64,000 nucleotides of DNA, from positions 517,575 to 581,574 of the forward strand of contig JAIXQD010000001.1 in the NCBI GenBank assembly GCA_027485855.1. The letters are read 5' to 3'. The DNA comes from Rickettsiales bacterium. Its GTDB lineage: Bacteria > Pseudomonadota > Alphaproteobacteria > G027485855. Both the position numbers and the translations under genes were made by a program. Under the pieces are notes generated by a model. It made no database searches. It saw only the letters and a program-made list of their open reading frames with translations, and was not told where the DNA came from. This document shows positions 7,216 to 51,048 of this stretch, one piece after another (position 1 is the stretch's first letter; each line of letters begins with the position of its first letter).

Positions 7216-7638
7216 CTAGCCGACTATTTCAAGGCCGCTAAAGAAAAAAGCGATTTCTTGCGCCGCTGTTTCGGGTGCATCCGAGCCATGCACGCTATTG
7301 GCTTCAATGCTTTCGGCAAAATCTTTGCGGATGGTGCCGGGGGCCGCATTGGCGGGGTTGGTGGCGCCCATCACTTCGCGGTTTTTGAGCACGGCATTTT
7401 CGCCCTCTAAAACTTGCACCACAACTGGCCCCGAGGTCATGAAAGCGCAAAGCGAGGCAAAAAATGGCCGCTCTTTATGTACGGCATAAAACGCCTCGGC
7501 TTGGGCGGCGCTGAGGTGCAAACGCTTTTGCGCGACAATACGCAAGCCGGCGCTTTCAAAGCGGGCATTGATTTGACCGGTTAAATTGCGGCGGGTGGCA
7601 TCGGGCTTCAAAATCGATAAGGTGCGTTGAACGGTCAC
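7216..7638 (-). CDS. ndk: Nucleoside diphosphate kinase
   Basis: A 140-residue housekeeping enzyme that transfers the gamma phosphate of NTPs to NDPs through a phosphohistidine. The catalytic histidine is His117 in NSVHGSD. The family signatures [12 protein letters not shown] at the N-terminus, ERPFFASL and [14 protein letters not shown] are all present. Its 3' end faces the end of matB with only 14 nt between the stop codons and no obvious terminator. Confidence 0.97.
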
Positions 7639-7830: not shown

Positions 7831-8529
7831 ATGCCCGTAGTGAAAAGCGATAGAGATATTAATTATTTTTATAGTTATGGCTATCCAATAACGCCAGATT
7901 GGTTTGAGCTGTCTGATTTAATTGACCAAAAAAACCCAGAGCGGCAGGCCTTTGTACAGCAGCACAAAAAGCTCAGAAGCGCCGCTATCATTGCCACTGT
8001 TGCGGTGGGTGCGTTGGGCTGTGCCGCGGTAGTGGGCGGATTCGCTGGGCTTATTGTTGCTCTTAAAATGGCCATGCCGGTTATTGGTGTTAATGCTGCG
8101 CAAGGCATTTTGCTTACGAGCCTTATAACAACGCTATTTGGCTCGGCTGTGCTCTGTGCCTATCCGCCCAAAAGTTTTCAAAAAATATTTGGCCATTTTG
8201 CCAAAGACGCCGAGCGTGAAAAGCTAAACCGCGCCGAAATGCACAGGCTCGATGCCGAGCTTGCCCCCTTCATTCAAGTCTTCAAGCAAAAACACGAAAA
8301 AATCGCTGCGATAAAAAGCCAACTGGCTGACACAGCAAAAATGGCCATTGCCCAAAAAACCGCCGACGGTCAGATGGTGCCCACATCTATCGAGGCCGCA
8401 TCCATCGAAGCTGCGGTTGCTGCCCCCATAGTTGCGGAAGCAGCAACGCCCGTGCGGCCCGTTTTAGCGCCCGTAAGGGGCGTCGTGCAACCGCGCGTTA
8501 AAATCACTGACGGCCCCATTCAGGCTTAA
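7831..8529 (+). CDS. Two-helix membrane protein of an island paralogue family, copy A1
   Basis: I do not recognise this family. The 232 residues divide into a soluble N-terminal segment with YPITPDWFELSDLIDQKNPE (about residues 18-40), a hairpin of two long hydrophobic segments (about 55-80 and 85-110), an amphipathic and probably coiled-coil region around LNRAEMHRLDAELAPFIQVF (about 130-160), an Ala/Pro-rich linker, and a terminal tail VKITDGPIQA. The same parts in the same order occur in the genes at 8554, 12221 and 13022. The ATG follows a strong GAGGAG Shine-Dalgarno. A cytoplasmic location of both ends is expected from the helical hairpin but not proven. Confidence 0.75.
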   Translation: MPVVKSDRDINYFYSYGYPITPDWFELSDLIDQKNPERQAFVQQHKKLRSAAIIATVAVGALGCAAVVGGFAGLIVALKMAMPVIGVNAAQGILLTSLITTLFGSAVLCAYPPKSFQKIFGHFAKDAEREKLNRAEMHRLDAELAPFIQVFKQKHEKIAAIKSQLADTAKMAIAQKTADGQMVPTSIEAASIEAAVAAPIVAEAATPVRPVLAPVRGVVQPRVKITDGPIQA

Positions 8530-8553
8530 AGGCCAAGAAAAAAGGAACAGAGC

Positions 8554-9222
8554 ATGAGCAGCGATACAAAAATAACTTATACCAGTGAGCTGAACGAGCC
8601 CATTAAACCTGCCGATAGAGATCTGGCTGCACTGGTTGACAATAATAGTGACGCACGAGAAAACTATTTAGCCCAACATAAAAAGGCTTATAGCAAAGCA
8701 AACTTTAGAAGCGGACTGATGGCCGCTACGCTTGGTGTTGTACTTCTAACGTCTATGGCAACATCCGCAATCTTTGCGGCAAGCGTCCTTTCGGCCGTGC
8801 TTTTGCCTGTTGCTGGCCCTCTGCTCACTGCTCTACTTATGACAACCACTGTTCTCGGCATTGGCATTGGAGCGCCGTTAGGATTTATAAAAATTATAAA
8901 AAAATATCAGAATGCCTTAGATAAAATGCTTGGTCTTACCGCGCTCAAGCAACTCAATGACGCGGAAGCAAAAAGGCTTAATGCTGCACTTGCGCCTTTT
9001 ATGGAGGCTTATCAATATAAACAAAAAGCAATTAAAGCCGCACTAAACATAAAAATTGCAGAAGAAACCGCAAGAGGGGAAATGGTGCCCACAGCACTGC
9101 CGCTAGCTGAAGCGGCGCCCTTGGTTGCTGAACAGGCACAACCCGTGCGGCCCGTTTTGGCGCCTGCCAGAAGCGTGGTTCAACCCCGCGTTAAAATCAC
9201 TGACGGCCCCATTCGGGCTTAA
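8554..9222 (+). CDS. Two-helix membrane protein of an island paralogue family, copy A2
   Basis: A 222-residue relative of the preceding gene, separated from it by 24 nt and with its own AAGGA ribosome site. The N-terminus is reshaped (YTSELNEPIKPADRDLAALV replaces the YPITPD segment) but keeps the position of the proline-rich motif. The hydrophobic hairpin is present, and the core motif is LNDAEAKRLNAALAPFMEAY. The last 25 residues, ending VKITDGPIRA, are nearly identical to copy A1, and the DNA encoding them is also nearly identical. Tail and core are thus conserved while the rest has diverged. Function unknown. Confidence 0.73.
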   Translation: MSSDTKITYTSELNEPIKPADRDLAALVDNNSDARENYLAQHKKAYSKANFRSGLMAATLGVVLLTSMATSAIFAASVLSAVLLPVAGPLLTALLMTTTVLGIGIGAPLGFIKIIKKYQNALDKMLGLTALKQLNDAEAKRLNAALAPFMEAYQYKQKAIKAALNIKIAEETARGEMVPTALPLAEAAPLVAEQAQPVRPVLAPARSVVQPRVKITDGPIRA

Positions 9223-9231
9223 AGATAAAAA

Positions 9232-9358
9232 CGTCAGCGACGCGACAAAAATAGCTTACACCAAAGAGCTGAGCCATCCCATTAAACCCGCCAGCAAGGT
9301 TCTGCCGCCGCCGCTTTTAATGCTTGGCGTGGCCACTGGCTACTGCTTGTTTGCATAA
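9232..9358 (+). pseudogene. Relic of a third A-type paralogue (start codon lost, truncated)
   Basis: Directly after copy A2 the DNA matches the start of A2: it encodes VSDATKIAYTKELSHPIKPA, against MSSDTKITYTSELNEPIKPA in A2. The initiator ATG has been changed. The similarity ends after about 30 codons, in PPPLLMLGVATGYCLFA, where a short hydrophobic remnant is followed by a stop. The membrane hairpin, core and tail are missing. Confidence 0.6.
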
Positions 9359-9528
9359 AGCATTTTTAAAGCCCGCATTGACTATAAGCCGTGTTGAAAG
9401 CCACATTGACGCTGAGCCGTGTTGACTGGCGTATCCATTTAGGACACCTTGACATTGTGCGGGGCGCTCATGCCCAAAATACACCGCACATTTCAACCTA
9501 AAATTTGGCCAATAAAACGGAGAGCATC
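9359..9528. repeat. Spacer with two 22-bp direct repeats, possible mobile-element end
   Basis: Bases 9376-9397 and 9404-9425 match at 19 of 22 positions (CATTGAC....AGCCGTGTTGA), a 28-nt period. A further TTGACATTG follows at about 9449. Regularly spaced TTGAC-containing repeats at one edge of a gene cluster recall the multiple terminal repeats of IS21-type elements. No transposase gene is present, so this is only a suggestion. Confidence 0.35.
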
Positions 9529-9942
9529 ATGACCAACGCCTTATGGGACGTGCAGGAGCAAATTTTTAATACACTCTGTGCAGATAGCGACATTCAAAAT
9601 CTGTTAGGTAACCCTGCGCGCATTTATGATTATGTGCCAGCAGATGTAATTTTCCCCTATCTGGTTATTAGCGAAATAGATGTGAGCCCATTTGATACCT
9701 GCGACCGCTATGGCTACGAACAATATTACCGCTTCGAGAGTTTTAGCCGCCAGCACGGATCAAAAGAAACAAAGCAAATATTACAAGCCGTGGTTGATTG
9801 CCTGCGCGGCAACAGCCTTACCCTAAATGGTCATGCCTTGGTCGATTGCCGATTACAGGGCATTCAAACCAAACGGCTGAAAGATGGCAAAACTACATTT
9901 GGCACAACACGCCTTGTTATTATAACACAGGAGATAATCTAA
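9529..9942 (+). CDS. DUF3168-type phage head-tail connector / tail completion protein (orphan)
   Basis: A 137-residue protein resembling the DUF3168 family, known from tailed phages and gene transfer agents, where it caps or completes the tail-neck junction. Recognisable features are the N-terminal WDVQEQIFNTLCADSDIQNL, the early IYDYVPADVIFPYLVI segment, the central YRFESFSRQHGSKETKQIL and the C-terminal strand DGKTTFGTTRLVIIT. I chose the ATG at 9529, which has a GGAGAG site 6 nt upstream, over an in-frame TTG at 9505. No capsid, portal or other tail gene surrounds it, so it is a phage relic or has been recruited. The stop overlaps the next ATG as TAATG. Confidence 0.65.
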   Translation: MTNALWDVQEQIFNTLCADSDIQNLLGNPARIYDYVPADVIFPYLVISEIDVSPFDTCDRYGYEQYYRFESFSRQHGSKETKQILQAVVDCLRGNSLTLNGHALVDCRLQGIQTKRLKDGKTTFGTTRLVIITQEII

Positions 9943-10589
9943 TGAACGGCTATAGCCAGACTCAGTTGGCAACGATGAGAGTTGTGTTTACACAGATGGC
10001 TGACAAGGTAGCAGAAGACGGGCACACACGCCTTGCTGAAGCTATGAGACATTTTTTATATGGCGAGGCTAAAGATTTTGATCTAACCGAAGAAGAGGTT
10101 TTAAGCGTACCAGCCATCGCCTCTGCCCGCGATAAAATTTGGAGCAGGGGATGGGTCGCGATAGAAAAAATAGTAAACGACATGCAGCGCACCAACAAAA
10201 TAGGCAGCAGAAAAAGCATTATTAACGATAGCCAACCGTTCAGCACACTTAGCATATCTGAACCAACGTCACTTCTTAGTCAATTTTCACACATCGTTGG
10301 CTCATCTACATTAAAAGCCTCGGGCTTTATTGAGGCAAATGTAGAACGAGAAGGTTATACACTCATAGGTAGTATTGACTTTGAGATAAAAGACTATTAC
10401 AATTTTGACCTTAAAGGTGATTTTTTTACAGATCTTTTTCGACAAGCACCTGTCAGGCTCTTAAGTAGCATTGCCAGCCCATACAAGCTTAATTTTGATA
10501 ATATTGAAGCCATGGTTTCGGCTGGCATGGCACAAAATTTTCTAACGGTGGCACGATGGAAAGAGACCAGAGATTATTTCAAGTTATAA
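9942..10589 (+). CDS. Hypothetical soluble protein coupled to the DUF3168 gene
   Basis: A 215-residue protein that I do not recognise. The ATG at 9942 overlaps the stop of the DUF3168 gene (TAATG), so translation is likely coupled. The N-terminal half is helical and charged. The C-terminal half, about residues 125-215, looks beta-rich, with the segment IDFEIKDYYNFDLKGDFF. That segment has a faint likeness to the D-x-Y-D region of colicin M-like lipid II hydrolases, but the aspartate after the tyrosine and the His-Arg pair are not there, so no such activity is claimed. It overlaps the next gene by 34 nt. Base composition is more AT-rich than the housekeeping genes. Confidence 0.6.
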   Translation: MNGYSQTQLATMRVVFTQMADKVAEDGHTRLAEAMRHFLYGEAKDFDLTEEEVLSVPAIASARDKIWSRGWVAIEKIVNDMQRTNKIGSRKSIINDSQPFSTLSISEPTSLLSQFSHIVGSSTLKASGFIEANVEREGYTLIGSIDFEIKDYYNFDLKGDFFTDLFRQAPVRLLSSIASPYKLNFDNIEAMVSAGMAQNFLTVARWKETRDYFKL

Positions 10590-11074
10590 ACCAAATTAGC
10601 CCTTGGCATTTATCTTGGCTATGGCCGGATGCATCTGAAAGAAGTAGCTGGCTATTTCAACATATGTTCATAGTTCAAATATACTGCCCTTTATTTGTAC
10701 TATTCGCTCTTTCTGCAAGCTTTAGCGAGGAGATAATAACTGCACCTATTATTATTGCCGCAATTTTAGGTTATGTTTTTCCTCTATACTGTGGATTACT
10801 TTGGGCATTAAGTTTTGTTATTTTTGCACTGAGTTCGCTGACCTTAATCATAAGTCATAAAAATACATTACGCCCAATTGCACGTCTTGCACTGAAGCTT
10901 TTTATTTTTATCGGCTTTATGTGGGTTTTTAGCTTTGGCGTTGCCTATGTATTTAGCAAAAACTTTCAAATGGACTCTTTTTGGTATCTGGCTTACGCAA
11001 CTGGATTTTGTGTATTTTATCTTTACAACGCACACACCGCGTTACAAAAAAGCAAAAACACCGCATCTGCATGA
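10556..11074 (+). CDS. Four-helix membrane protein of a second island family, copy W1
   Basis: A 172-residue integral membrane protein of unknown function. It opens with a short soluble segment containing ISPWHLSWLWPDASER, followed by about four hydrophobic helices (roughly residues 35-55, 60-95, 110-130 and 135-155) and a short polar tail ending KSKNTASA. The following gene repeats the opening motif and the tail, so this is one of a tandem pair. Its start overlaps the preceding gene by 34 nt and its stop overlaps the next ATG (ATGA), so the genes are co-translated. The Trp-rich motif just before the first helix probably sits at the membrane interface. Confidence 0.65.
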   Translation: MERDQRLFQVINQISPWHLSWLWPDASERSSWLFQHMFIVQIYCPLFVLFALSASFSEEIITAPIIIAAILGYVFPLYCGLLWALSFVIFALSSLTLIISHKNTLRPIARLALKLFIFIGFMWVFSFGVAYVFSKNFQMDSFWYLAYATGFCVFYLYNAHTALQKSKNTASA

Positions 11075-11565
11075 CCATAAAACAAATCCGCGCATGGCAT
11101 TTATCTTGGCTGTGGCCGGATGCGTCTGAAAGAAACAATCTAAAATTTAAGTTGCTGATAATTTCTCACTTATATTTGCCGTCATCCCTACTTTACACAA
11201 TGGCACTTGCGTGGAGAGTTGAGAAACCAAACCTGCTTGAAGAGGTTTTGGGCATCGCAGGCTTTATACATTTTGCTATAAGTTTATTTTTTTGGCCGAT
11301 AAGCCTTATATCGTTTTTGCTAATCCTTTTCTGTTCGTTATGGCCACATAAAAAACACCTTCTTGAAATGTCACGCCAATCGTTGCAGTTGTTTGTAATC
11401 GTTAGCCTTATGTGGATTTTAAGTTTTGGCTCAATGTTTACTCTGGCATACTATCTTCAAATGAATGGATATTGGTATTTTGGCTTAGTCACCATAATAA
11501 GTATTTATTACCTGTGCAAATCTCGCACTGTTTCAGCAATAAACAAAAACACCTCATCTGCATGA
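11071..11565 (+). CDS. Four-helix membrane protein of a second island family, copy W2
   Basis: The 164-residue tandem paralogue of W1. It starts at an ATG overlapping the W1 stop (ATGA) and opens IKQIRAWHLSWLWPDASERN. Helices again follow, and the C-terminus is INKNTSSA. The soluble motif and the last helix are conserved between W1 and W2, while the middle membrane part has diverged. This resembles the conservation pattern of the A/B family on either side. Its own stop again overlaps an ATG for a third copy. Function unknown. Confidence 0.65.
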   Translation: MTIKQIRAWHLSWLWPDASERNNLKFKLLIISHLYLPSSLLYTMALAWRVEKPNLLEEVLGIAGFIHFAISLFFWPISLISFLLILFCSLWPHKKHLLEMSRQSLQLFVIVSLMWILSFGSMFTLAYYLQMNGYWYFGLVTIISIYYLCKSRTVSAINKNTSSA

Positions 11566-11690
11566 CTATAAAACAAATCCGCGCATGGCATTTATCTTGG
11601 CTGTGGCCGGATACAACTGAAAGAGAATTAACCCTTTGTGGTATCCGGCCTACGCAACTGGATTAGTATATTTATTAGCCAAAATACAAG
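11562..11690 (+). pseudogene. Third W-family copy destroyed by an internal deletion
   Basis: The ATG at 11562 overlaps the W2 stop exactly as W2 overlaps W1, and the first 21 residues (MTIKQIRAWHLSWLWPDTTER) match. The sequence then jumps to the last-helix region: DNA at about 11637-11665 matches W1 at about 10980-11008 (GGTATCxGGCxTACGCAACTGG). The junction is out of frame, so the product is a 34-residue stub. The C-terminal part survives only in another frame (WYPAYATGLVYLL). Confidence 0.7.
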
Positions 11691-11965
11691 CGAGTGATAC
11701 GCCAGTCCCACAAACCAACCTGTTGCAGTTGTACGTTGAGACGGTCGTCACGCGCATCTGTTGTTCCGATGGTGTCTGCGGTGCCAATGCGAACAACGCC
11801 AATTCTGATGCCAGACGTCTTTATATCTTTTTCAAGCTCGTTAAGTGTTTTGTCCTTTGGGGAGACGTCAAACCCTACGTCACACTTATCATTAACGAAC
11901 CCTGTGGGGGTCATTTCAACTTTGGCATTCAGATATTTTTGCATAATTGTGCTTGGAATTTCCAT
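11675..11965 (-). CDS. Peptidase inhibitor I78-like protein
   Basis: A 96-residue protein on the opposite strand to the surrounding island genes. The C-terminal half carries the features of I78 inhibitors: IRIGVVRIGTADTIGTTDARDDRLNVQLQQVGLW, that is, a basic VRI strand, a G-T turn, a T-x-D-x-R-x-D-RLNV core and a terminal beta strand. Many I78 proteins have a signal peptide; this one does not show one, so it may act inside the cell or against an imported peptidase. The ATG at 11965 has a GGAG site 7 nt upstream. The 3' end overlaps the W3 relic. The assignment rests on motif pattern only. Confidence 0.55.
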   Translation of the reverse strand: MEIPSTIMQKYLNAKVEMTPTGFVNDKCDVGFDVSPKDKTLNELEKDIKTSGIRIGVVRIGTADTIGTTDARDDRLNVQLQQVGLWDWRITRLYFG

Positions 11966-12137
11966 TTTTCTGCTCCGTTTGTTATATCGCCACCATGGCT
12001 AAGATGGATTTAACTTTAGTGAATGAACCTTAGTGAATTCAGCTTCCACAATGCAACCTATATTACCCCCTTTTTTAGTTGCAGATAAAAATCGGCCCAA
12101 CAAAAACACTGCGTCAATCTCACTTAAACACCGAGCA

Positions 12138-12220
12138 GCATCACGTTTTTAGTACATGAAAGTATTTTGAAGCATTAAGTTATATGCTTAAACGGGGTAA
12201 CGCCATGAAGGTAAACGCCA
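12138..12220 (+). promoter_or_regulatory. Conserved 83-nt leader of copy B1 (matches 12939-13021)
   Basis: This noncoding segment runs from GCATCACG to the B1 start codon and is repeated before B2 with only two differences over 83 nt. It contains a small hairpin (AAGCAT, 8-nt loop, ATGCTT, about 12173-12192) that is intact in both copies, and ends in an AAGG ribosome site. The coding sequences that follow are much less alike. Confidence 0.7.
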
Positions 12221-12901
12221 ATGCCAAAAATTAAAACAAATAGTGATATAGATTATTACTACTCGATGGATTACCCCATAACCCCCGATTATTTTGAGCT
12301 CGCAAAATTAATTGACGGAGAAAATCCAGCGCGCAAAAATTATGTCGCCACATTTGAAAAATTAAGCCGCAAGCCATGGCTTATGGATAAGCTAGCAGGT
12401 GTCGCCCTTCCTATCACTGTGCTTGTAGGTTTTTTTGCCACCGCGATGGTGGTTAGTTCAATTTTGGCACCTATCATTGGGCCATTTGCAATTTTGGCAG
12501 CTTGTGGCTTGAATCTCGCCGCAGGATTACTAAGCCTCGCCGCTGTGCTAAAACATGGAAGCAAAATTGAGAAATTTTGGGCAAAAGTGAGCGGCCACGA
12601 TAAGTTGCATCAGCTCAACCTGGCCGAAGCCAAACGGCTTGATACTCAGCTTGCGCCGTTTTTTGATGCATTCAAACATAGAGAAGAGCAAGTCAAAGCA
12701 GCCAAGCGAGCCCTTGAGCTAGCAACGCAAACCCCAATTGTCATTCAAACGCCGGATGGCAAATTTGTTGCGGCAGGTATAGAGGCGCAAAAAACGGCGC
12801 TGCCCATCGCCACAGCGGCAACAGCTGTGCGCCCTGCCCTAACGCTGACCGGGCCCAAAAAAGCCGGCGTAAAAATTACCAGCGGACCAATACAGGCTTA
12901 G
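12221..12901 (+). CDS. Two-helix membrane protein of an island paralogue family, copy B1
   Basis: A 226-residue protein with the same architecture as the genes at 7831 and 8554: an N-terminal YPITPDYFELAKLIDGENPA segment, a two-helix hydrophobic hairpin (about residues 60-110), the core DKLHQLNLAEAKRLDTQLAP (about 126-145) followed by a charged helix, a variable linker, and a tail VKITSGPIQA preceded by VRPALT. Copy B2 begins exactly 801 nt downstream, so the two arose by tandem duplication of a unit comprising leader and gene. No known domain is recognised. A helix hairpin with long soluble arms argues for a membrane-anchored scaffold or an oligomer-forming protein, but this is inference. 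Confidence 0.75.
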   Translation: MPKIKTNSDIDYYYSMDYPITPDYFELAKLIDGENPARKNYVATFEKLSRKPWLMDKLAGVALPITVLVGFFATAMVVSSILAPIIGPFAILAACGLNLAAGLLSLAAVLKHGSKIEKFWAKVSGHDKLHQLNLAEAKRLDTQLAPFFDAFKHREEQVKAAKRALELATQTPIVIQTPDGKFVAAGIEAQKTALPIATAATAVRPALTLTGPKKAGVKITSGPIQA

Positions 12902-12938
12902 TTTCACCATCATAACTTCTCGGGCATAACTTCTATTG

Positions 12939-13021
12939 GCATCACGTTTTTAGTACATGAAAGTATTTTGAAGCATTAAGTTAAATGCTTAAACGGGGTA
13001 ACGCCACGAAGGTAAACGCCA
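12939..13021 (+). promoter_or_regulatory. Conserved 83-nt leader of copy B2
   Basis: The second copy of the leader at 12138-12220, offset by 801 nt. The two substitutions lie in the loop of the small hairpin and in a CATGAA/CACGAA triplet. The AAGCAT/ATGCTT stem and the ribosome site are unchanged. Confidence 0.7.
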
Positions 13022-13702
13022 ATGCCAAAAATTAAAACAAATAGCGATATAGAATATTTTTATGAGGTGGAGCGCCCAATCACCCCTAATCACTTAGAGC
13101 TAGAAAATTTAATCGACGACCAAAATCCAGACCGCAAAAAATATCTGGCCGATTTTAAAAAATTAAGCGGCAAACCAAGGATAATGGATAAGCTATTAAA
13201 TTTCATTGGTGGCATGGCTGTCATTGTCGGCATTTTCGGCACGATGGCGGCTTTTTCAATTTTAATTCCTTTTATTGGGCCACTATTTGCCGCTCTGGCC
13301 GCTGGCGCTTCAATTGCCGGCACTCTTATGCTGACCATGATATCTGCATCTAAGTTTTTTAACAAAGTTGAAAAATTTTGGGCCAAGCTCAGCGGCCACG
13401 ATAAGCTGCATCAGCTTAACCTGACCGAAGCCCAGCGGCTTGATACTCAGCTTGCGCCCTTTCTTGACGCCTTCAAACAAAAACAAGCGCAAGTTAAAGC
13501 CGCCGAAGAAGCCCTTAGGGAAATCAAAAGAATTAAAATTGCCGTTCAGGCGCCTGATGGCAAATTAGTTGCCGCAGAGATAGCCACGCCACAAGCGGCC
13601 CAAAAAATTGCCACAGCCGCAACGCCTGTGCGCCCTGCCGTAACGCTGGCTGGGCCCAAAAAAGCCGGCGTAAAAATTACCAGCGGGCCCATACAGGCTT
13701 AG
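13022..13702 (+). CDS. Two-helix membrane protein of an island paralogue family, copy B2
   Basis: The 226-residue paralogue of B1. The first eight residues (MPKIKTNS), the core DKLHQLNLTEAQRLDTQLAP and the tail KKAGVKITSGPIQA are almost the same as in B1. The rest of the N-terminal segment (ERPITPNHLELENLIDDQNP) and the membrane hairpin have changed strongly. The pattern of well-conserved blocks separated by diverged blocks suggests either selection on particular parts or gene conversion between copies. The gene is the last of the island before the GDPD gene, which starts 57 nt later. Confidence 0.75.
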   Translation: MPKIKTNSDIEYFYEVERPITPNHLELENLIDDQNPDRKKYLADFKKLSGKPRIMDKLLNFIGGMAVIVGIFGTMAAFSILIPFIGPLFAALAAGASIAGTLMLTMISASKFFNKVEKFWAKLSGHDKLHQLNLTEAQRLDTQLAPFLDAFKQKQAQVKAAEEALREIKRIKIAVQAPDGKLVAAEIATPQAAQKIATAATPVRPAVTLAGPKKAGVKITSGPIQA

Positions 13703-13759
13703 TTTTTCAGCTCTTACTTCTGCTGTGCAAATGCACAAATAGGTTTATACTGTGCTCCT

Positions 13760-14665
13760 ATGAATGGCATTTTCCTTCTTGGCGGGCATCGCGGGCTTGG
13801 CTGCACCGACTCTTCGCATGCGGCACAGCATAGAGCCGTGGCAAATTTGCCGGCTGAAAATACCATGGCCAGCTATAACGCGGCCTTTGCCGCTGGGGCT
13901 GACTTTATTGAAGTTGATATTGTGCCTTGCGCCTCGGGCGAATTGCTCTTGTGCCACTCGCTGCGTTTAGCTGAGCATGTGCTCACGCAAACATCCGCCC
14001 AAGCACCGCCACATGCTTATCTCAATCAACTTACATTGGCGCAGGCGCAACAACTGCCTGTTGGCCCCAATGGCACGGGCACTATACCCAGCTTACAGCA
14101 GCTTTTGACGGCGCTGCCCGCGCTTGCTGTTCATAGCCGCAGCAATTTTTGGCTTAATATTGAAATTAAGGGCGCCAAAGGCACAACCCAGCCCCATCAT
14201 AGCGCCGCACTCATTGCGCGCCTTGTGCAAGAGATAGACGGCTTCCCACTAGAGCGATTGTTGTTTTCGTCATTTGCTTTGTCTGAACTAGTGTTGTTAC
14301 ACAAGCTTTTGCCGAAAGCCGCTTTGGCGCTGCTGACTGTCGATGAGGGCGGCATCGGCAAAAACTTTTATGCTGACAGCGCTGAAACTTACCTGCCTTT
14401 TACCGCAAGCACAGTGCAGCAGGCATTGCAAGCTGTGCCGCTCACCGCCATTCACCCTGAATTACAAACCCTCAATGCCGAAGCGCTGAATGCCACACAT
14501 AAAGCGGGTTTAATGCTTAATTGCTGGTGCTGGCAAGAGCAGCCCTATAATACGCATAGCCATAAGCTAAAGCAGGCTTTGGCGCTTTGTGCGGCTCATC
14601 ACCAAAAATTAAACCTTATCACCGATTATCTTGACCAAGCACAAGCCTTTAGGACACCAACATGA
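13760..14665 (+). CDS. Glycerophosphodiester phosphodiesterase family protein
   Basis: A 301-residue TIM-barrel enzyme of the GDPD family, which hydrolyses deacylated phospholipids to glycerol-3-phosphate and an alcohol. The motifs are GGHRG at the N-terminus, AENTMASYNAAFAAGADFIE (PENT-like with the metal-binding Glu) and VDIVP. In the position of the usual catalytic His-Asp pair the protein reads LCHSLRL: the His is kept but the Asp is Ser. Other barrel strands (LNIEIKG, LLFSSF) are recognisable. There is no clear signal peptide, so it should be cytoplasmic. The stop overlaps the kup start (ATGA), so they are coupled. Confidence 0.75.
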   Translation: MNGIFLLGGHRGLGCTDSSHAAQHRAVANLPAENTMASYNAAFAAGADFIEVDIVPCASGELLLCHSLRLAEHVLTQTSAQAPPHAYLNQLTLAQAQQLPVGPNGTGTIPSLQQLLTALPALAVHSRSNFWLNIEIKGAKGTTQPHHSAALIARLVQEIDGFPLERLLFSSFALSELVLLHKLLPKAALALLTVDEGGIGKNFYADSAETYLPFTASTVQQALQAVPLTAIHPELQTLNAEALNATHKAGLMLNCWCWQEQPYNTHSHKLKQALALCAAHHQKLNLITDYLDQAQAFRTPT

Positions 14666-23710: not shown

Positions 23711-23785
23711 TGGGGCGTCGCCAAGCGGTAAGGCAGCGGTTTTTGGTACCGCCATTCCCAGGTTCGAATCCTGGCGCCCCAACCA
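23711..23785 (+). tRNA. tRNA-Gln (anticodon TTG)
   Basis: A full cloverleaf with acceptor stem TGGGGCG/CGCCCCA, anticodon loop TTTTGGT with TTG, and T-arm CCAGGTTCGAATCCTGG. The encoded CCA is at 23783-23785. A terminator hairpin follows directly. Confidence 0.95.
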
Positions 23786-23957: not shown

Positions 23958-24172
23958 AAAAAAAACCGATTAAATGAACAGTAAGAATACACCCAATAAA
24001 TCACACAGCTTCAAGCCATACTTGGCTCCACACCTTCACTAAACATGAATTATTATAATTTTTATTGAGAGCAGAGCAAAAACTAAAATCTTGTGTGATT
24101 AACAAATGCTCCAAAATAGAAATAATCTGATATAAGATAACGTTGTTAGCTCGCTTTAAGAAAATCAATAGC
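23958..24172. other. AT-rich spacer upstream of the AbiH gene
   Basis: This is strongly AT-rich sequence compared with the housekeeping genes. It should contain the AbiH promoter. TATAAGATAA at about 24131 is a possible -10 region. No gene is seen. Confidence 0.4.
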
Positions 24173-25048
24173 ATGACTACGCTATACATAATAGGAAACG
24201 GTTTTGACCTGTGGCACAAACTACCTACCAGGTACGAAAATTTCTATGACTTTGCCAAAGAAATACTTGATGAAATCTCAGAATACTATTCGTTTGATTG
24301 GCCTAAAGGAGATAATCATCCATGGCACGACTTTGAAAATGCTTTAGGTAAGTTTGATTGGCATGAATTTTATGAAGCTCATAACAACGTAGATGCTAGT
24401 GCGGAAGATTTTCGACCAAGCTTTGTGTATGGACTAGAAGATGAACTCAAAGAAGTAGGCGATAATTACGTAGATAAGATAAAAGAGCTATTCCAAGAAT
24501 GGGTTTCGGGCATAGATATTACCGTGGCTGAGAAAAAAATGTCATTTGTAGATAGCTCCATGTTCATCAATTTTAACTACACCTCTACACTTCAATACAT
24601 ATATAACATCCCCGAAGAAAGAATATTACACATACACGGAAGAGCCGAGAGCTACGACGATTTAATATTTGGTCATGGTGAAACCATGCAAGAAGCTCCC
24701 GAGCTAGACGAAAGCGGTGACAGCAACCGCACTATGTTTTCAGACGCTCAGGCTGCGGCAAAGTATCTTTTTTACGCCATGCAAAAACCTGTTGAAATGC
24801 TTTTAGAAACACATAAAATTTTCTTTGAATATTTATCAAGCATACGAAAAGTAATTGTCATTGGTCACTCGCTTAATTGCATCGACATCCCATATTTTAA
24901 AGAAATCGCTAAGTTTGCTCCTAATGCCAACTGGACAGTTTGTACATATCAACCTGATCATCAAAGTCATTTTATCAATGCGCTATCCACATGCGGGATA
25001 CCAAACGACAAAATTGGTTTTTGTAAATACATAGATTTAGAAAGTTAA
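24173..25048 (+). CDS. AbiH family abortive-infection (phage defence) protein
   Basis: A 291-residue protein with the AbiH signature at its N-terminus: TLYIIGNGFDLWHKLPTRYENF. Other conserved parts are the central FINFNYTSTLQYIY, ILHIHGRAE, IFGHGE and IVIGHSLNCIDIPYF. AbiH was first found in Lactococcus as an abortive-infection gene against phage; its molecular activity is not settled. I use the ATG at 24173 because the family motif starts there, rather than an upstream TTG. The gene is much more AT-rich than its neighbours and stands alone, with no partner gene. It follows tRNA-Gln and a degenerate tRNA-Gln copy, which fits acquisition at a tRNA integration hotspot. Confidence 0.85.
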   Translation: MTTLYIIGNGFDLWHKLPTRYENFYDFAKEILDEISEYYSFDWPKGDNHPWHDFENALGKFDWHEFYEAHNNVDASAEDFRPSFVYGLEDELKEVGDNYVDKIKELFQEWVSGIDITVAEKKMSFVDSSMFINFNYTSTLQYIYNIPEERILHIHGRAESYDDLIFGHGETMQEAPELDESGDSNRTMFSDAQAAAKYLFYAMQKPVEMLLETHKIFFEYLSSIRKVIVIGHSLNCIDIPYFKEIAKFAPNANWTVCTYQPDHQSHFINALSTCGIPNDKIGFCKYIDLES

Positions 25049-48883: not shown

Positions 48884-50755
48884 TTAGCGCCGCAATATGT
48901 TTCTGATAGATCCTAAAATCGCCACGGGTCTTTGCAGCAGTGGCCCGTAAGCCTCAGCGTCTTTTTTGGCAATATGCTTTTTGAGTATTTTCACTACTTC
49001 AGTGTGGCCGCTCTGTTTCGCAAGAAAAAGAGCAGCGTCATTGTTGGCATGCGCATCCGCGCCATGTTCCAATAACAACTTCACCACATCGGCATGCCCC
49101 TTATCTGCCGCAGAACGTAGGGCTTCGTCATTATAGGCATGAACATCTGCGCTATGTTCCAGCAGCAGCTTTACTACATCGGTATGGCCATCGTATGCCG
49201 CCCAGCGCAGGGCTTGGTTATCTTGGGCATGAACATTTGCGCCGTGGTCTAGCAGCAGCTCAACCACAGCGGCGTGGCCATTTCGTACCGCAAAATTGAG
49301 GGCTTCGTCATTATTGGCATGAACATTAGCGCCATGTTCCAGCAGCAGTTTCACCACATCAGTGCGGCCACGCCCTGCCGCCCGATACAGGGCTTCGTTA
49401 TTATTGGCATGTACATTGGCGCCATGTTCTAACAACAGTGCCACAACATCGGTGTTGCCATGTTCGGCCGCCCAACGCAGGGCTTGGTTATCTTGGCCAT
49501 GAACATTTGCGCCATGTTCTAGCAGCAGTTTAACCACATTGGTGTGGCCATAATATGCCGCAAAACGTAGGGCTTCGTCATTTTTGGCATGTATATCGGC
49601 GCCACTGTTTAGCAGTAGTCTCAACACATCAGTGCGGCCGTTATATGCTGCCATACGCAGTGCTCCGTCATTTTTGTCATGTATATCAGCACCATGCTTG
49701 AGCAGGGCCTCTACAGTTTTTATAAGTCCGCTTTTTGCTGTTTTAATAAGATACGCGTTTTTTACCCATTCTCTTAAATTGGCGCTGTTGACCTTTTCTG
49801 CCAGCGCGGTGTCGTTAATGGGGACATGGGGCGCAAGGTTGCGGCTGGCCATTATAAGGTCAAACGCTGTGCAAAAATCAGCTTTATCAATAATGGGCAG
49901 GAGCAATGACGTTGCGGTATAAAGCTTGGAAAAAAATGCGGCGAGTGTGGGTAATTTATCAAGCAGGGCTTGCTGTTGTGATGCGGTTTGCTGGGTATCT
50001 TCAGCATTAAACAGCTTGGTGATTTTTCCGTCTTGTAGCACAAAGGCGGTTTTACCCATGCCGCTCGCCTCAAGATAAAGCAAAGTTTTCTCAGGGAAAT
50101 AGTCATTAAAAGCATTATCTTTTTGTGCGGCTGTGCACCAACGTGTGCCCGAGCCAAACTCTTGGCTGGCAGCCATGGTGAGCGGCATCACCAACCGCCA
50201 TTGTGCGGTTTGGCCAATGACTATCGCTTGGTTACTATCAATAAAACTCTGCTGGCTTGGGCTGAGGGGTTTAAACTCGGTGGCGGTCTCACCGCGCAGG
50301 GCTTTGAGCTGTTGGTAAAGTTCAAACGGGCTGTCGATGGCAAAAAGGTCGGTGCTGATACCGGCACGTTTTTTAATCACATTCGGCTTGTTGTGATAAA
50401 GCGTGAGATCGTCCGCGTATTTATATAAATCTTCTAACAAGAGCGGCTGTGGTGGATTAGTTTGCGTTTGCGCGGCCCAGTTTTGCCGATAACGTGTTAA
50501 GAGCCAGTTTTGATATTTGCTGGCTTGTTGTGCGGGTAAATCGGGCACGGCTGCGGCGATTTGCTGCATGGCTGTGCGTACCGCCGCGGCAAGCACATCA
50601 TCCCCCGCCACCTGCACATTTTGCGCAAACAGCGCAGCGATTTCGTCATGCAGCCTGCCCTGCCCACGACCCTGCCCACCCGCAGCACGCAGCGCCACAA
50701 TCGCCTGCTCAAAGCCGCTTAAATGCACAAGTAAAAGATTATTCGATAATCTCAT
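48884..50755 (-). CDS. Ankyrin-repeat protein with N-terminal GTRWCTA-motif domain
   Basis: 623 residues from the ATG at 50755. The C-terminal half, about residues 330-600, holds about nine ankyrin-type repeats, for example NDEALRFAAYYGHTNVVKLL followed by LEHGANVHA. The period is 30 residues instead of the usual 33, because the T-P-L-H turn is shortened to D-E-A-L. The N-terminal region is helical, then carries FGSGTRWCTAAQKDNAFNDY and a following beta-rich part (KTLLYLEASGMGKTAFVLQDG). I recall a similar W-C-T motif in phage-related proteins but cannot name a family. Ankyrin proteins in alphaproteobacteria often act on host or competitor proteins. No secretion signal is visible. Confidence 0.75.
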   Translation of the reverse strand: MRLSNNLLLVHLSGFEQAIVALRAAGGQGRGQGRLHDEIAALFAQNVQVAGDDVLAAAVRTAMQQIAAAVPDLPAQQASKYQNWLLTRYRQNWAAQTQTNPPQPLLLEDLYKYADDLTLYHNKPNVIKKRAGISTDLFAIDSPFELYQQLKALRGETATEFKPLSPSQQSFIDSNQAIVIGQTAQWRLVMPLTMAASQEFGSGTRWCTAAQKDNAFNDYFPEKTLLYLEASGMGKTAFVLQDGKITKLFNAEDTQQTASQQQALLDKLPTLAAFFSKLYTATSLLLPIIDKADFCTAFDLIMASRNLAPHVPINDTALAEKVNSANLREWVKNAYLIKTAKSGLIKTVEALLKHGADIHDKNDGALRMAAYNGRTDVLRLLLNSGADIHAKNDEALRFAAYYGHTNVVKLLLEHGANVHGQDNQALRWAAEHGNTDVVALLLEHGANVHANNNEALYRAAGRGRTDVVKLLLEHGANVHANNDEALNFAVRNGHAAVVELLLDHGANVHAQDNQALRWAAYDGHTDVVKLLLEHSADVHAYNDEALRSAADKGHADVVKLLLEHGADAHANNDAALFLAKQSGHTEVVKILKKHIAKKDAEAYGPLLQRPVAILGSIRNILRR

Positions 50756-51048
50756 ACCCACAACAATAAGTCCCGAAGCTAAAGACTTAATTATTTATGT
50801 CCGGTATTTTCGTGAAATGCCGAGCTATTCTCTGCCAAAAATTTACCGCAGCCGGCATTCCACGCAAAAAATTATGGTTAATTTACTATGAAACTATTAT
50901 TGCTGTTGCGAGTGCTTTTGCCAAAAGTCTAATGTCTAGGCATCAGAGGCCGGCGGCCAGTTTTTATATATCAGCGCCAACCTTTGCAGCATAATTGAGC
51001 CAAGCTGATTTTGGCGTAAAGATAACCACAGCAACTAAGGAGAGTTCC
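50756..51048. other. Intergenic region between the ankyrin gene and a small membrane protein gene
   Basis: This is an AT-rich divergent spacer. It ends in AAGGAGAG before the ATG at 51049. No other feature is seen. Confidence 0.4.

Follow-up and report, generated by a model that had tools for sequence, protein, structure and literature searches.

What fills the ~6 kb between ndk and a GDPD-type gene in a Rickettsiales bacterium, where two unrecognised families of membrane proteins stand in tandem copies, is the question raised by the stretch of 64,000 nucleotides analysed here (hereafter the window; assembly GCA_027485855.1, contig JAIXQD010000001.1, positions 517,575 to 581,574). The interval is bordered by ndk (7216-7638, minus strand) at one end and the GDPD-type gene (13760-14665) at the other, and holds four intact genes (W1-W4) and a 5' relic of a two-helix family, as well as two intact genes (B1 and B2) and a relic (B3) of a four-helix family, all on the plus strand. 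A first-pass annotation, made from the sequence alone, had located these tandem, co-oriented copies and relics correctly, as judged from open reading frames (ORFs), alignments and nucleotide similarity, and had read them as a single island in which both families expanded together. This last claim did not hold, since the two-helix genes are scattered over several loci of the genome and the four-helix genes belong to a separate operon of low guanine-plus-cytosine (GC) content that has a counterpart in a gene transfer agent (GTA) cluster. The interval is a composite, a W-type array broken by an operon of lower GC (0.44 in its tail-terminator gene, 0.42 in the gene that we call X and 0.38 in the B array, against 0.46-0.49 in the W genes). 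That its two parts are a cluster of membrane-hairpin proteins and a displaced GTA-type module with toxin-immunity-like cargo is a reading to which we give even chances.

The intervening operon (9505-11664) consists of overlapping genes, the first two of which had been missed by the first-pass annotation. The first encodes a paralogue of the phage and GTA tail terminator (9505-9942, likely start ATG at 9529; PF11367, E=3e-21; PHROG 176). The second, X (9942-10589), encodes a soluble protein of 215 amino acids with a D-x-Y-N-F motif, characterised here by blastp, profile and motif. They are followed by B1 (10556-11074), a small polytopic membrane protein with four candidate helices, by its tandem copy B2 (11071-11565; 33% identical to B1, three to four candidate helices), and by B3 (11562-11664), a relic in which the first 22 codons survive (86% identical), together with a 3' piece of 39 nt (85%) beyond an internal deletion. 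Partial translational coupling had been proposed for the interval as a whole, and it applies to this operon: the genes at 9505 and 9942 meet in TAATG, the one at 10556 starts within the gene upstream, and the 10556/11071 and 11071/11562 junctions both read ATGA. In contrast, the two-helix genes are separated by gaps of 24 to ~120 nt and show no coupling. Downstream of B3, a minus-strand ORF of 96 amino acids (11675-11965) has a C-terminus that resembles, by eye, peptidase inhibitor I78, without Pfam support.

Where the operon's gene combination recurs is indicated by its first gene, as PF11367 was found in two places only of the genome, the window and the cluster C34, with 45% identity between the two tail terminators. 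C34 encodes a terminase, a portal, a prohead protease, an HK97-type capsid protein, a connector, a stopper, the tail terminator, a tail tube, GTA-gp10, a hub, an NlpC/P60 protein and a megatron match, and NF048004 matches the cluster at E=2e-166, under the curated cut-off of that model. With these syntenic head and tail genes, GTA-gp10 and the megatron included, C34 is by its gene content a predicted RcGTA-like gene transfer agent cluster. It resembles RcGTA-type clusters in the head-to-tail gene set, from terminase to megatron, and differs from them in low-GC arrays of X and membrane genes that split stopper, terminator and tail tube; the stopper and terminator of Rhodobacter capsulatus carry consecutive locus numbers (Rcc01689 and Rcc01690; PMC7296036). 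Between stopper and tail terminator, C34 has a second X gene (X10818), whose start overlaps the end of the stopper gene, and then six tandem membrane genes (G1-G6), while H1, H2, a third X gene (X16645), H3 and a tape-measure-like gene lie between tail terminator and tail tube. Two further X genes persist there as 3'-end relics, one between G3 and G4 and one after H3. GC in the inserts is 0.40, as compared to 0.55-0.56 in the flanking GTA genes. The X protein of the window (X9942) is 28% identical to X10818 (blastp E=3e-18) and 24% identical to X16645 (E=3e-8). The membrane proteins B1, B2, G1-G6 and H1-H3 are all of 140-176 amino acids with two to four candidate helices, yet B, G and H are mutually unrelated (hhalign probability ~1% or less); their genes adjoin X, mostly downstream and on the same strand. 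The block at 9505-11664 is a separate low-GC operon that repeats the gene combination of the genome's RcGTA-like cluster. According to Pfam and PHROG, the tail terminator is the only GTA structural gene in it, and the block is not a GTA by itself. We regard this pairing of X and membrane-gene arrays with a GTA, duplicated outside the GTA, as the most valuable lead to come from the locus.

Toxin-immunity cargo is the best reading of the pairing, because each of the related X genes sits with a different family of small membrane proteins, because the membrane genes outnumber X and the X copies decay first, and because the carrier is a phage-derived particle cluster. X would then be a putative colicin-M-like protein of toxin type whose target is the envelope, perhaps the lipid II cycle as in colicin M, and the B genes, putatively of immunity type, would together with the G and H arrays encode inner-membrane immunity proteins against it. 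The immunity genes would be kept and diversified while the X copies decay, as occurs with orphan immunity genes, and the GTA would carry the X-immunity pair as cargo, much like tailocin pairs, with the module duplicated in the window. Immunity proteins of colicin-M-like systems are small polytopic inner-membrane proteins with little sequence conservation: PmiA has ~137 amino acids and four helices and is encoded downstream of the toxin gene in the same orientation (PMC5277000), BmiA has three helices (PMC4661593), and the immunity protein of a DUF3289 effector, a domain proposed to be colicin M-like (PMC11148199), is 95 amino acids long, with three helices and a signal peptide (PMC12135965). 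There are documented cases of orphan pmiA genes preceded by toxin remnants, and colicin-M-like pairs are cargo of prophages and of tailocin clusters, as in some Pseudomonas tailocins (PMC5277000). The associations of X with B, G and H are like these systems in the D-x-Y-[D/N] region, in the small membrane protein of three to four helices encoded downstream in the same direction, in the putative orphan immunity genes with toxin remnants and in the phage-derived carrier cluster (PMC5277000, PMC8469651, PMC12135965). They differ in the absence of the HR part of the colicin M motif, in having immunity-like genes in arrays of two to six, and in lying inside a GTA structural cluster. As in PmiA and BmiA systems, where the small inner-membrane protein has three to four helices, genes for small membrane proteins (two to four candidate helices) stand beside the putative toxin gene in the case of B, G and H, which is a generic feature; the PmiA motif D[T/S]xGxP, which precedes the second helix, was not seen by eye in the B, G and H sequences examined.

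How far X itself resembles colicin M can be followed in its motif. A profile of X run over 385 genomes of the class retrieved two convincing relatives from two other alphaproteobacteria, neither of them in a GTA or phage context, which scored 41.5 and 41.2 as against maxima of 17 and 25, respectively, in a control of 30 shuffles. All five X proteins carry D-x-Y-[D/N]-[F/W], in the form DxYD in X16645 and both relatives from other genomes and in the form DxYN in X9942 and X10818. In colicin M, the essential residues are D226, Y228, D229, H235 and R236, with the consensus DxYD(x5)HR (PMC8469651), and a profile search of PDB aligned X with colicin M (2xtr_A, E=1.0) exactly at D226, Y228 and D229. 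Several results weigh against a toxin of this type. A narrower profile did not reproduce the colicin M match; the position of D229 is N in X9942 and X10818; none of the five X proteins has the HR half; no export signal is recognisable in X; and X, B, G and H have no match in Pfam, NCBIfam or PHROG. Moreover, the predicted structure of X is of low confidence (predicted local distance difference test, pLDDT, 60) and gave no significant structural match, its highest-probability match in PDB being a type VI secretion system effector(-immunity) complex (9jdi, E=0.15). Colicin M was not among the structural matches listed for this model, the profiles of PF14859 and DUF3289 did not match X, and X has no recognised receptor or translocation domain. 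Since the match at E=1.0 was not reproduced, HR is missing and no structural match is significant, we do not claim membership of X in the colicin M family. Matches of X to viral folds were rejected as long-strand artefacts, and other weak X matches (L086, L088 and L090) as noise.

The inserts separate the stopper from the tail genes in a GTA cluster, a position that also fits another origin, in which X and the B, G and H genes would be ordinary phage-type accessory genes of a GTA or prophage ancestor, serving superinfection exclusion or holin-like lysis timing, with X as an accessory of the neck or of assembly. Exclusion and holin genes typically encode small polytopic proteins, and both X9942 and X10818 overlap the structural genes upstream of them. 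However, the relatives of X outside phage and GTA contexts stand beside other membrane genes: a seven-helix protein follows one of them, and a protein with a single N-terminal helix follows the other, which is frameshifted in its contig. In addition, no match to PHROG or to the phage collection was found, nor any member of the B, G or X families in the viral contigs searched, and decay to 3' ends amid multiplying membrane genes is not what one expects of a structural protein. Accessory genes of this kind are in our view an unlikely explanation, and toxin-immunity cargo remains the one that we prefer.

On either side of the operon lie the two-helix genes, all intact by ORF and alignment: W1 (7831-8529, 232 amino acids; profile E=2e-110) and W2 (8554-9222, 222 amino acids) upstream, and W3 (12221-12901, 226 amino acids) and its tandem copy W4 (13022-13702, 60% identical to W3) downstream. 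The copies show 32-60% identity to that at 12221 over their length, share the invariant C-terminus VKIT[S/D]GPI[Q/R]A, and were retrieved by a profile search of the whole genome at E 1e-96 to 3e-115, a self-similarity far above chance. W3 and W4 are repeated as units that include an 83-nt leader (12138-12904 versus 12939-13705, blastn E=6e-155). The leader of W3 (12138-12220) contains the inverted repeat TTGAAGCAT/ATGCTTAAA, its copy upstream of W4 occupies 12939-13021, and an Rfam search of the locus gave chance matches only, with none to the duplicated leader. The relic next to W2 (9221-9292) consists of 72 nt without a start codon, which correspond only to the 5' end of the gene at 8554, with 74% identity. 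Together with the deletion in B3, it bears out the decay of copies reported in the first-pass annotation.

Are these genes then a local expansion? Within the genome, a query with a single W copy recovered its three neighbours and nothing else, a profile built from the four window proteins added a fifth member on contig C31, and iterated profiles revealed three tandem clusters of four (in the window, on C31 and on C6) and a pair on C15. The C31 cluster adjoins cox genes, its fourth gene running onto contig C3 through an identical overlap of 33 residues, and the C6 cluster lies between unrelated ORFs and dnaJ-dnaK. By hhalign, the window proteins match those of C31 with a probability of 98% and those of the C6 cluster with 93-94%, mostly over coiled coil and tail. 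All follow a common plan: a short N-terminus leads into one long hydrophobic segment compatible with a hairpin, then come a coiled coil bearing a motif like LNxxExxRL and a stretch rich in Ala and Pro, and the protein closes with a terminal peptide. Proteins with this plan or tail number at least ~20 in the genome, family counts being minima because about one quarter of the genome was sampled as stretches. W1-W4 form a single tandem cluster within a membrane-hairpin family that is restricted to this lineage and occupies several genome sites.

Outside this genome, no counterpart of the family was retrieved. W had no match in Pfam, PHROGs and NCBIfam, and PADLOC returned none for representatives of W or B, so that the first-pass statement that neither family was recognised stands. 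No member was found with the W profile among 399 genomes of the phylum, with the C6 profile among 385 genomes of the class, with W4 as single query in a further collection of genome contigs, or for the hairpin family in viral contigs; the predicted hairpin structure (pLDDT 66) had no match in PDB. In the phylum set, the W profile hit L008, a type I restriction specificity protein, which was dismissed as a coiled-coil artefact. The genome is placed only loosely by its L10 protein, whose best match (58%) is from Azospirillum, and no comparison genome is nearer than the same class.

The lack of relatives outside the source genome in the sets searched, and the Ala/Pro richness of the tails, would be expected if the W copies were lineage-specific duplications drifting without shared function, the common tail being low-complexity Ala/Pro sequence. 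This is very unlikely in the face of two results. First, dN/dS, the ratio of nonsynonymous to synonymous substitution rates, is 0.30-0.44 between tandem W neighbours, which indicates that the copies are maintained by purifying selection. Second, a profile trained on 11 tails and run over all sampled C-termini, with reversed sequences as controls, ranked five other hairpin proteins first among the untrained sequences, three of them in a four-gene cluster on C31, one on C3 and one on C6. The reversed controls (best 0.23) are clearly outdone by the top three (E 3e-6 to 5e-4) and modestly by the last two (E 0.017 and 0.027); among the five, homology outside the tail was detected for the C6 protein only (E=5e-8). 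One hairpin protein with the shared tail (L065:4245-5126) matches LeoBC/LeoB weakly in PADLOC (E=4e-4), which is probably explained by coiled-coil composition. Other arrays were noted in the sampled stretches: four soluble tandem paralogues of an unrecognised family, overlapping or nearly so, on a contig that also has two hairpin-family genes (L047:4575-7814); co-oriented tandem ORFs without assigned family, at least two of them BLAST-related, adjoining the C6 hairpin cluster (L028:7050-9444); and a five-copy family of small proteins (107-133 amino acids) with no family assigned, in tandem at both of its sites (L067:1010-2231 and L062:18313-19002).

Within the W genes, similarity is unevenly distributed. 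Divergence is greatest in the hairpin (33-39% identity in W3/W4 and C6c/d) and least over the last 40-60 codons, where tandem neighbours are most alike, synonymous sites included: nucleotide identity is 81% in the last 36 codons of W1/W2 versus 36-54% elsewhere, 89-95% versus 52-68% in the C15 pair, and 84-90% versus 51-76% in C6c/d. Within clusters, this pattern suggests that gene conversion acts locally on 3' ends or that 5' parts are exchanged. More tentatively, we infer that the hairpin proteins are membrane anchors with a docking tail: they would sit in the inner membrane with both ends cytoplasmic, and their shared C-terminal peptide may dock to a common cytoplasmic partner. Chemoreceptors with a C-terminal tether peptide likewise combine a membrane hairpin, a coiled coil, a flexible tail and a terminal peptide conserved throughout the family. 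The likeness is one of plan, in a works-like sense only, as W proteins have no sensory or signalling domain and no sequence relation to them.

Chlamydial Inc proteins, too, form a large set of paralogues that combine coiled coils with a hydrophobic hairpin of two helices. The W proteins share these traits and differ in their conserved C-terminal peptide, in being alphaproteobacterial and in the lack of any non-flagellar type III secretion found. If the hairpin proteins were secreted as effectors into a eukaryotic host, as are Inc proteins, whose hydrophobic domain is bilobed, then the many paralogues, the tandem clusters and the conserved C-terminal tail would be accounted for, and the same genome has ankyrin-repeat paralogues. 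Nevertheless, VirB4 (PF03135) had no match in this 97.8% complete genome, the genome is flagellated, and the sole FHIPEP protein is the flagellar FlhA, whose gene is flanked by FlhF-like and FleN-like ones, so a type III system other than the flagellar one was not found. The secretion routes checked were the VirB-type type IV secretion system and type III only, and effector hypotheses based on either were dropped, with VirB4 absent and FHIPEP in a flagellar neighbourhood only; to a host-effector role we give the slightest chance of all the readings considered. In the part of the genome that was sampled, BLAST links at least nine ORFs into the ankyrin-repeat family (48884-50761 in the window; L055, L056, L064 and L067), and several of them stand in tandem. 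For the membrane-anchor interpretation of the hairpin proteins, the conserved C-terminal peptide, homogenised within clusters, offers a ready handle for partner identification, in what is a large membrane-protein class new to the libraries and other genomes searched.

What remains is the class of function that had been suggested at the outset for both families, namely defence, competition or surface variation. Competition is now the class of role with the best support for the four-helix family. The two-helix family is under purifying selection. A fast-turnover island for surface variation or defence would explain the tandem copies, the relics and the local drop in GC, and an AbiH-like gene lies 10 kb away. 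Against this stand the purifying selection on the two-helix copies, the location of W relatives elsewhere between housekeeping genes, with no adjoining mobility genes in the sampled loci, the lack of any defence-family match for representatives of either family, and the fact that no signal peptide or surface signature was seen. Such an island is thus very improbable. The AbiH-like abortive-infection gene (24143-25048) is situated in an AT-rich patch just past tRNA-Gln (23711-23785).

GTAs are usually described as streamlined gene-transfer particles, and a limited literature search found no paper describing cargo arrays within a GTA head-tail gene block. We tentatively raise the possibility, doubtful as it still is, that the GTA of this bacterium has its own toxin-immunity cargo, in which case X may be released or delivered with the particles, the arrays of diversified inner-membrane immunity proteins, which flank the tail-terminator gene and recur at the second site, may decide which neighbours survive, and gene exchange would be coupled to kin discrimination. 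If so, GTA production would link DNA transfer with the killing of non-kin.

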